Assembly: GCA_002189035.1 (NCBI GenBank)
Contig: CM007989.1
Location: 2,976,001-3,040,000 of the forward strand
Reading direction: 5' to 3'
Origin: Utricularia gibba
Taxonomy: Eukaryota > Streptophyta > Magnoliopsida > Lamiales > Lentibulariaceae
Length of the DNA stretch: 64,000 nt
Shown here: one piece after another, positions 55,976-60,402 of the stretch
Layout of the letters: each line of letters starts with the position of its first letter
How positions within the stretch are numbered: the first letter of the stretch is position 1
Made by a program: the position numbers and the translations under genes
The notes under the pieces: generated by a model
Told to the model about the DNA's origin: nothing
What the model saw: only the letters and a program-made list of their open reading frames with translations
The model's database searches: none

Positions 55976-58900
55976 ATGGCTGAGAGTAAAGGCGATCTGT
56001 GGAGGCTATCAGAGAGAGTTGTGGAGGGTGTTCTTCGAGAGCATGGAGATCGGGGTCGTGAGTTTTTTGATTCTGGGAGAGTTAAAGGTAAGGGATATGT
56101 TTCCTTTTCTGTGATCTTGATCGTGAGTTTTTCGAGTGCGTTTTCACGAGTTGGGTAGGTGAGGTTTGATGGCTTTTTCTAGCTTGGGGTGAAGATGAAC
56201 AATGCTTGTATTTTCTCTGATCCCTGTGTACTGAAACAGAGGTGCCCTGTTCAATGGCTGATCTTCTGTGTGTGTGCAAGTCATTTGCTTTTCTATTAGT
56301 GAAGATCCAATCTAATGAAGCTTGGTTTTTTGTTCAGTATCAACAGCAGTTTTTTTTTTCAATTTCAGAGACAAGGAGGCATGAGGCTGCAGCTTGGCTG
56401 AGAGACATTGTTGGAGTAATTGGGGCGAAAGATCTACCGCCTGAGCCTTCTGAGGAAGAATTTAAATATGGTTTGAAGAATGGGATAATACTGTGCAAAG
56501 CACTCAATAAAATCCAGCCTGGTGCTGTTCCGAAGGTCAGTGATAGGTCCTTTTTGTGGTGTTTTCTATAGACTTCTTCATTTCTTGATGCAATTGTTTC
56601 AGGTAGTCGAAAATCCATGTGATTCCGGTCCCATTCCAGATGGAGCTGCTTTGATAGCCTATCAGCAGTTCGAGAATCTAAGAAATTTCCTTGAATCCAG
56701 TCAAGAGATTGGACTGCCTACTTTTGATGCTCCTGATCTACAGCAGGTGGGAAAGATGATCATAATTGAGTAGCAATATATATCTAAACCCATCTCTGGG
56801 TCTACGCTAACTACTGTTCTATAGGGGGAAATACGTCAAGGGTTGTCAATACAGTGTTGGCCATGAAGTCCTACCACGAATGGAAAAGGGGAGGAGCTCA
56901 AGGGGTATGGAAGGTGGGAGGAAATGTGAAGACGGATGCACCCACAAAATCTTTTGTTCGAAAGAATTCAGAGCCATTCACAAGTTTTTTATCAAGGAGT
57001 AGGCAAGAACTATCAACGAGCAATGTGAATACAAATGAGAATTCGAAGGAAATGGTATGTCATTCTTGGTGTGGTATCAACTTCTCTGTCAAGTATTCAC
57101 GTCTTGTTTATTCCTTGGTATTTCTTCCTCTTACAGACTGGTTCTTCCTTGAGTATGCTCCTTCGAGCAGTTCTCTCAGACAAGAATTCTGAAGAAATTC
57201 CGAATGTATGCTTTAAGCGTTCAATATCAGATGCATTCCATTGACCAGCCTCTGCAATGGTCATCACGACTTGATATATTTCTCTGTGTTACAGCTTGTT
57301 GAATCTTTACTACGCAAGGTCATGGAACAGCTTGAAAATCATATTGCTAATCAAACTGAAATGGTGAGTTAGTCATCAGTCTATGTGAGACTTGTTGGCA
57401 CAACTCATAGCTTTTACCTCTGCACAAAGTTTTAGATGTGGCAATTGCAACCAATATTCTGTAGAAATATGAAGTTTAACTGAGGGCTGCTTTAAATCCT
57501 GCAGAAAAAGGCCGAAAATCGCAGTCCCAGGTCTTCATCATCCTGCACACAGGTGCTTTTTTTTTTTTTTTTTTTTGCAGATACATGAAAGTTTATGCTA
57601 GGCTTTATATAACTTGTCTGACAGATGGTTAATCTTGGCAGAATAAGATCGATAGAAATGATGATGAAATTTCAAACGGAAGTTCAGGAAGTAGATTTTT
57701 GAAGCAAAAAATGCTGAAACAGCATAAAGATATCAAGGTAAAATCAAGTGAAGTGCCTTGTTTCCTTCTCATGTACTCTAGCTGATAATGGTTCGCATTA
57801 CAAGGCACTTAAGCAAACTCTGTGTAGTACGAGATCCGGCATGCAACTCATGCAAATGAAATTCCATGATGAATTTAACAAACTTGGTAAGTAGATTTAC
57901 AGTTTTCCTCATATTTTTTTTTCTTAAGTTGTTTTCACTTCTAGAAGAATTTGACGAACCCTATTCTCATGTAGGCTCCTGTCTACATGGACTAGCTCAT
58001 GCTGCATCCAATTATCATAGGGTTCTTGAAGAAAATAGGAAGTTGTATAATGAAGTTCAAGACTTGAAGGGTAATTCCTACCCTTCTTATCAGCTTGATT
58101 GTCTCTGTAAATTTCTGATGGTAATTTTAACTTTGAACCAGGAAGCATTCGAGTTTACTGTCGTGTAAGGCCATTCCTTCCAGGGCAATGCGATTATGTT
58201 ACTACAGTGGATCATATCAATGAAGGGACTATAACAATAAACACATTGGCCAAAAATGGGAAAGGGCTAAGATCCTTCAGTTTCAACAAAGTGTTTGGAG
58301 CTTCAGCAACCCAAGGCTAGGCCGTAACCACTAGGCCCTTTTCTTTTCGAATCACTTCAAGGTCTAATCCTGTTTCTATTTTCTTACAGAGGAGATATAT
58401 GCGGACACACAGCCACTAGTAAGATCCGTCCTTGATGGCTACAATGTCTGCATTTTCGCCTATGGTCAAACGGGGTCCGGTAAAACATATACAATGGTAA
58501 GAAAGTGTGTCCTGAAACATTCTGTGCCTGTCATGAAACATGTATAATATCTGTTCTTCCATCATTCAGACTGGACCAACAGACATCAAGCAGAGTAGTG
58601 AAGGGGTGAACTATAGAGCCTTAAGTGACTTGTTCCTTCTTGCTGAGCAAAGGAAGGACACATACTGTTACCAGATATCTGTTCAGATGATTGAGATATA
58701 CAACGAACAAGTCAGAGATCTTCTGCTAACTGATGGATTGAGCAAAAGATATCCTTTTCAATATGATTCATGACCAAAGTTATTTCTTTTCAGTTTCTTG
58801 TTAGTTCATTGATTGTGAGATCCTTGACTACAACACGTTAGAAATTCGAAATAGTTCTCAAACAGGATTGAATGTACCAGATGCAAGTTTGGTGCGTGTC

Positions 58901-60402
58901 TCCTCATCATCCGACGTTATTGAGCTCATGAACATCGGACTAAATAATCGTGCAGTGGGTGCAACAGCACTCAATGACCGCAGTAGCCGGTCTCACAGGT
59001 GAGTGAAGAAAGTGAAACTTCAACTTCTGAAAACAACTCCTGTGCTAATATTCTCTGTTTTTTTTTTTTTTTTGTATCCTTCCTTGTTTATACTTGCAGT
59101 TGCTTAACTGTTCATGTCCAAGGAAAAGATTTGGCTTCAGGAGGTGTTCTTCGGGGATGTATGCATTTAGTTGATTTAGCTGGAAGCGAGAGAGTTGACA
59201 AATCTGAAGTGATGGGAGACAGATTAAAAGAAGCTCAGCACATCAATAAATCTTTGTCTGCTTTGGGTGACGTGATATCCTCTCTAGCTCAAAAGAACTC
59301 ACATGTTCCCTACAGGAATAGCAAATTGACACAATTGCTGCAAGATTCACTTGGTGAGTAGTTGTGATTCTACTTCAATGCTAATCTTCCCGAATGCTGG
59401 TTTTCAATGCATGTTTCTGGTTACTGTGATCAGGAGGCCAAGCAAAAACACTGATGTTCGTTCACATAAGTCCGGAGCCGGATGCCATCGGGGAAACAAT
59501 CAGCACACTTAAATTTGCTGAGCGTGTTGCAAGTGTTGAACTTGGTGCCGCACGGGTAAACAAGGATTCGGCTGATGTTAAGGCACTCAAGGAGCAGGTT
59601 CCTTAACTCCTGCTCTTTTCACCTTTTTATTATAGTACAACATGCAAACCTCGTTCACTGAACTAGCCAAGTGTTGTTTTTGCTAGATTGCTACTCTTAA
59701 AGCTGCCTTAGCAAGGAAAGATGGAGAGCGAAGCCCTGTTCATTGTAAAGCACAAACTTCCCCTTTAAGTGGATTAAGAAAGCCTATGGAAGAACTGAGC
59801 AACATAGAGGTAAAGTACCGAACTTTTTCTTTCTGCTTGACGAAAGCTGAAGCCAATGATTTGTGAACTCAGCAAGCACTTAGTCCTATCCACGGGAGCT
59901 CCCCCATGTGGTCATCTCGTCCCAGAAGCCCCTGCCAAGTTGAAAATGCCGGATGGATAGACAAGCTGATGGTCAATAAACTGGACCCCATGATTTCCTG
60001 GAGTTCAAACAATGACCACAGCATCATCTTCAAGCCAATGTACTCTTCAGACAACACTGATGATACAGTTGCTGATGCTGGAAGCAGTGATTCCTCCGTG
60101 GCAGAGTCCATGTGCCAACTCCAGTACCCAAAACTAGAGAAAGCCGCAGGCGGCCGGAAGGCGACAGACCGGCATCATGCTGCTACAGTACATGGCAATG
60201 GCTCATTCAGGTGAAACACTGGTTTCCAACAATGGCCTTAGTCAACCCTAGAATTATCTTATCTTGACAAGAGGTTTCATTGCTGATCAGGAGCATGATA
60301 CCGAGACCAGTGCAGTCGCCACCTCCTCCTCCTAAAGGCGTCGCAAGCCAAGCTTACAGTCGCCGTTCCGAGACGAAACGGATGCCCAACATTCGAAACT
60401 AG
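55976..60402 (+). CDS. Kinesin-14 with calponin-homology domain (one-base frameshift; one AT-AC intron)
   Basis: Minus-end-directed motor of the plant KIN-14 CH-domain class, which links microtubules to actin. Nineteen exons from 55976-56087 to 60291-60402. CH domain: [60 protein letters not shown], and [19 protein letters not shown] coiled coil leads to the neck [19 protein letters not shown]. The motor has [11 protein letters not shown] (P-loop), [21 protein letters not shown] (switch I), LVDLAGSE (switch II), [18 protein letters not shown] and [15 protein letters not shown] Ser/Pro-rich tail follows. Exon 4 (56825-57054) is one base short at its G run, so CH and motor are out of frame as written; restored length is 908 aa. 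Intron 58749-58836 is AT-AC. Intron 58316-58389 starts with GC. Confidence 0.88.
58749..58836 (+). other. U12-type AT-AC intron in the kinesin gene
   Basis: The intron begins ATATCCTTTT, the U12 donor consensus, and ends CAAC-AC, with the branch-site-like TCCTTGAC at 58821-58828 about ten bases before the end. Splicing here joins AAAAG to GTTAGAAATTCG, giving [11 protein letters not shown] in frame as in other kinesin-14s. No GT donor is available in the exon end. Confidence 0.88.

Follow-up and report, generated by a model that had tools for sequence, protein, structure and literature searches.

The window, a stretch of 64,000 nucleotides of the Utricularia gibba genome, harbors a predicted kinesin-14 gene with an N-terminal calponin homology (CH) domain (Table 1). 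The CH domain (PF00307, 44.3 bits) is encoded by exons 1-3, and the spliced motor scores 361.9-364.5 bits against the Pfam Kinesin family. The nearest solved relatives of the motor are KIFC3 and the plant KCBP, both kinesin-14 structures, and the spliced motor can be aligned to them across the junction studied here with a gap of no more than one residue. Judged from its sequence, the predicted product is a kinesin-14, in agreement with the first-pass annotation, which had named a kinesin-14 motor domain. The P-loop and the switches are present and the motor is intact; all junctions except that between exons 3 and 4 are in register up to the stop codon. The same gene also contains a GC-AG intron at 58316-58389 (CAAG/GCTAGG...ACAG), where the paralogues have CAAG/GT.

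Table 1. Features of the kinesin-14 gene in the window and the U12-type introns at the homologous codon of five paralogues
Feature	Position	Strand	Remarks
Predicted CH-domain kinesin-14 gene, 19 exons	55976..60402	+	one register break, exons 3/4
Upstream motor exon	58570..58748	+	last bases AG
Predicted AT-AC U12-type intron, 88 nt, phase 2	58749..58836	+	from signals, frame and paralogue comparison
U12-type 5' splice site ATATCCTTT	58749..58757	+	complementary to U6atac AAAGGAGA and U11 AAAAGG
U12-type branch site TCCTTGAC	58821..58828	+	branch A 58827; pairs with U12 snRNA GAGUAAGGA
AC 3' terminus	58835..58836	+	sole in-frame AC retaining LEIRNSSQT
Downstream motor exon	58837..58998	+	first base G; contains switch I SSRSH (NDRSSRSH)
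Intron of paralogue C98			donor ATATCCTTC; branch TCCCTTAAC; end AC
Intron of paralogue C317			donor ATATCCTGC; branch TTCCTTGAT; end AC
Intron of paralogue C412			donor ATATCCTTT; branch TTTCCTAAC; end AC
Intron of paralogue on C3	C3 at 2.52 Mb		donor ATATCCTTA; branch TTCCTTGAC; end AC
Intron of paralogue L029	C3:740571-743840		donor ATATCCTTT; branch TCTCTTGAC; end AA

The intron interrupts the motor domain 5' of switch I. The bases at 58749 read ATATCCTTTT, and direct reading of 58749-58836 gives ATATCCTTTTCAATATG...GTGAGATCCTTGACTACAACAC. The donor matches the U12 5' splice site exactly. A sequence was taken as a U12-type branch site if it was close to TTCCTTRAC and placed its branch A roughly 10-15 nt before the end of the intron; the candidate ATCCTTGAC has one mismatch to this consensus, and its branch A lies 10 nt from the intron end. 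The AT-AC signals proposed in the first-pass annotation, namely the donor at 58749, the branch site at 58821-58828 and the AC at 58835-58836, are therefore all present. Excision of the interval joins AAA-AG to G-TTA-GAA-ATT-CGA at a phase-2 junction, yielding SKRLEIRN in frame, and the junction of 58748 with 58837 (KRLEIRN) is thus as previously proposed. If the intron is kept in, the reading continues as R-YPFQYDS-stop and ends seven codons on; as this stop precedes switch I, no motor would be made, and an intron-retaining transcript is a likely target of nonsense-mediated decay.

All nearby GT-AG, GC-AG and AT-AC pairs spanning 40 nt or more were enumerated if their removal preserved the frame and introduced no stop codon. 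This exhaustive listing around 58749-58836 holds no GT-AG pair, bearing out the earlier claim that no such alternative keeps the frame, and includes GC-AG pairs as well as other AT-AC pairs whose donor is not of U12 type. From the donor at 58749, an in-frame AC is found only at 58836 or 58863, the latter of which deletes LEIRNSSQT, whereas the ACs at 58831 and 58834 bring a TAG codon into the frame. A loose signature of donor, branch site and AC occurs once in the window, where a shuffled 64 kb yields about 0.38, so that the signature by itself is unremarkable. Genome-wide, the exact pattern has 11 matches against three in the reversed control, a weak excess. What is noteworthy is the exact placement at the frame-restoring junction, together with the recurrence in five paralogues. 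Further exact pairs of ATATCCTTT...TCCTTRAC in the genome (L009, L011, L014, L015 and L016-L019) are candidate AT-AC introns, among which L016 and L017 are identical sequences on two contigs.

The genome encodes minor-spliceosomal snRNAs above the Rfam cut-off, with scores of 86.9 bits for U6atac, 86.2 bits for U12 and 74.2 bits for U11. Their pairing stretches, AAAGGAGA in U6atac, GAGTAAGGAA in U12 and AAAAGG in U11, are intact. The U6atac and U11 stretches pair with the donor of the intron, and that of U12 pairs with the branch site, leaving the branch A bulged. Searches of the genome assembly for U4atac and the zf-U11-48K domain gave no match; neither the assembly nor the search is complete, and such components can be missed.

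The genome of Utricularia gibba was searched with the motor, the best paralogues were cut out and the homologous junction was read in each. In five paralogues the identical codon is interrupted, in the identical phase, by an intron whose donor is of U12 type and always reads ATATCCT, accompanied by a U12-type branch site (Table 1); four of these introns end in AC and one in AA. In all six U12-type introns the branch A is located 10-12 nt from the intron end. Donor positions 1-8 share 96% identity among the six, compared to 26-31% at positions 9-40, which is about the chance level, and the intron bodies no longer align. Conserved donors within diverged bodies indicate that the duplicates are old and that the splice signals alone have been retained. 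At the level of sequence, this conservation of signals across six diverged introns is the strongest evidence that the sites are used. The paralogue L029, which carries the apparent AT-AA intron, is a divergent kinesin-14 with an altered P-loop (QTRSGKT) and SSHSH in place of SSRSH, and it may not be a functional motor.

Beyond the first-pass annotation, the comparison revealed not only this family of paralogous U12 introns but also U2-type introns at the identical position in sister genes. Four more distant kinesin-14s, L046, L047, L048 and L008, carry GT-AG introns at the identical codon and phase, with the ordinary U2 donors GTAGGC, GTAGTT, GTAAGC and GTAAGT, respectively. By contrast, the homologous codon is uninterrupted in a kinesin-5 as well as in the KCBP-like and ATK-like kinesin-14s. 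In a tree of motor fragments, the nine genes tested that bear the intron group together in one clade, apart from the intron-less kinesins, with a support of 99/96; once the divergent L029 is added, the support is 93/89. The U2 group falls on one side of a branch with a support of 94/91, and the U12 group likewise, weakly, with 75/67. U12 and U2 introns thus share codon and phase among genes of one clade, the pattern by which class conversion is recognized. In L046 (C1:7186000-7189000), a perfect U12-type donor, GTATCCTTT, is found near position 1395, about 28 nt inside the U2-type intron, and is either a relic or a chance occurrence.

A single clade sharing codon and phase is most simply accounted for by one intron origin and one class change; as far as these sequences tell, an ancestral intron has probably diverged into two classes, U12 and U2. 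We infer that the change ran from U12 to U2; the tree alone is silent on the direction, which is taken from published work, where such changes are held to run almost exclusively from minor to major (PMC10639083, PMC7367187). Alternatively, the U12 and U2 introns might have arisen independently at the shared codon, with no class conversion. The existence of intron-less paralogues is in line with such independent origins, and AT-AC introns are said to convert rarely, probably via a GT-AG U12 stage (PMC2831892), which leaves room for a separate origin of the U2 introns. Nevertheless, the same codon, the same phase and a single clade supported at 99/96 speak against it, and we consider independent origins unlikely.

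It is also conceivable that this gene copy is a pseudogene and that the intron is a relic no longer spliced. The register slips by one base between exon 3, in phase 0, and exon 4, which is open in frame 2 only (window 56746/56825). The break is located at CTATAG/GGGGAAATACG, where the paralogues have GGNGGNAAR, and there is one G fewer in a run; it possibly represents either an assembly error or a real frameshift in a decaying gene copy. Together with the change of one donor from GT to GC, this break relative to the paralogues would fit a pseudogene. However, a run of G is a typical site of assembly error, the break lies in the CH domain and leaves the motor exons unaffected, the register holds at every other junction down to the stop codon, and the motor is intact in its P-loop and switches, all of which make a pseudogene improbable.

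Two further readings of the junction have very little to commend them. The best of the GC-AG alternatives, a major-class intron at 58742-58841 giving DGLKIRN, would keep the frame without stops and has a precedent in the GC-AG intron at 58316-58389, but it has a poor donor (GCAAAAGAT), loses four residues around SKRL, lowers the motor score against Pfam Kinesin from 364.5 to 360.6 bits and leaves the ATATCCT donor common to six paralogues unexplained; the GC-AG alternatives were rejected for their worse donor and lower motor score, although they are in frame. Removal of the AT-AC intron by the major spliceosome, as known for a few U2-type introns such as SCN4A intron 21 (PMC2831892), is just as implausible, given a donor that fits the U12 consensus from +1 to +9 and a branch site that fits TCCTTRAC at the proper distance.

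The reading of 58749-58836 as a U12-type intron, which the first-pass annotation had put forward, is well supported by the five paralogues, the snRNA genes and their pairing, and the alignment to kinesin-14 structures. In the proposed mechanism, U11 and U12 would recognize the donor and the branch site, U11 would give way to U6atac at the donor, and 58748 would then be joined to 58837 by the minor spliceosome. The intron would be old within the family, going back to one that the ancestor of the two kinesin-14 clades had in this codon and phase; one clade would have retained it as a U12 intron (AT-AC, once AT-AA), whereas that of the other clade would now be of the U2-type GT-AG class. Altogether, we hold with high confidence that the motor of this CH-domain kinesin-14 contains a genuine U12-dependent AT-AC intron; it probably descends from one ancestral intron that is now of U12 class in one clade and U2 class in the other.

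Both AT-AC introns in plants and switches of intron class have been described before. The intron itself is no different from known plant U12-type AT-AC introns, sharing their terminal dinucleotides, donor and branch consensus and branch distance. Similarly, in known U12/U2 switches (the model of Burge et al.; Lin et al. 2010, PMC2831892; PMC7367187) the intron at a given codon and phase is U12 in some genes and U2 GT-AG in others, whereas the present case concerns paralogue clades within one plant genome and the AT-AC subtype, the reportedly rarer converter. AT-AA is the commonest non-canonical minor subtype in plants (PMC10639083); the L029 intron, which occupies the same codon, apparently shares the AA end, but its host is the divergent copy and perhaps a non-functional motor. 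The rarity of AT-AC introns asserted in the first-pass annotation agrees with Arabidopsis, where they account for 81 of 119,097 introns in Araport11 (PMC5716242) and for 26% of the U12-type introns (PMC7367187). Its warning that gene finders would fail here agrees with a re-annotation in which non-canonical introns were wholly missed by ab initio gene prediction (PMC5716242). Our literature search, with the main Arabidopsis U12 list outside its coverage, found no paper on the kinesin-14 intron, and the papers covered did not discuss its host gene family. That list, by Zhu and Brendel in 2003, probably includes the Arabidopsis kinesin-14 orthologues.

The intron call fixes the gene models of this motor and its five paralogues, which gene finders restricted to GT/GC-AG introns would misjoin just before switch I. 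Moreover, ten paralogous introns at one codon in one genome, six U12-type and four U2-type, provide a useful set for intron class change. A more speculative idea, to which we give little credence, is that a slow minor AT-AC/AT-AA intron before switch I gates the six CH-domain kinesin-14 paralogues, with selection tying their output to minor-spliceosome activity, and that the sister clade was released by changing its intron class. As DROL1 and CENATAC are specifically required for AT-AC/AT-AN introns (PMC11039992), it is a sharp prediction that mutants lacking them would retain the intron. Defects of the minor spliceosome in plants would be predicted to cause the simultaneous loss of several kinesin-14 motors.
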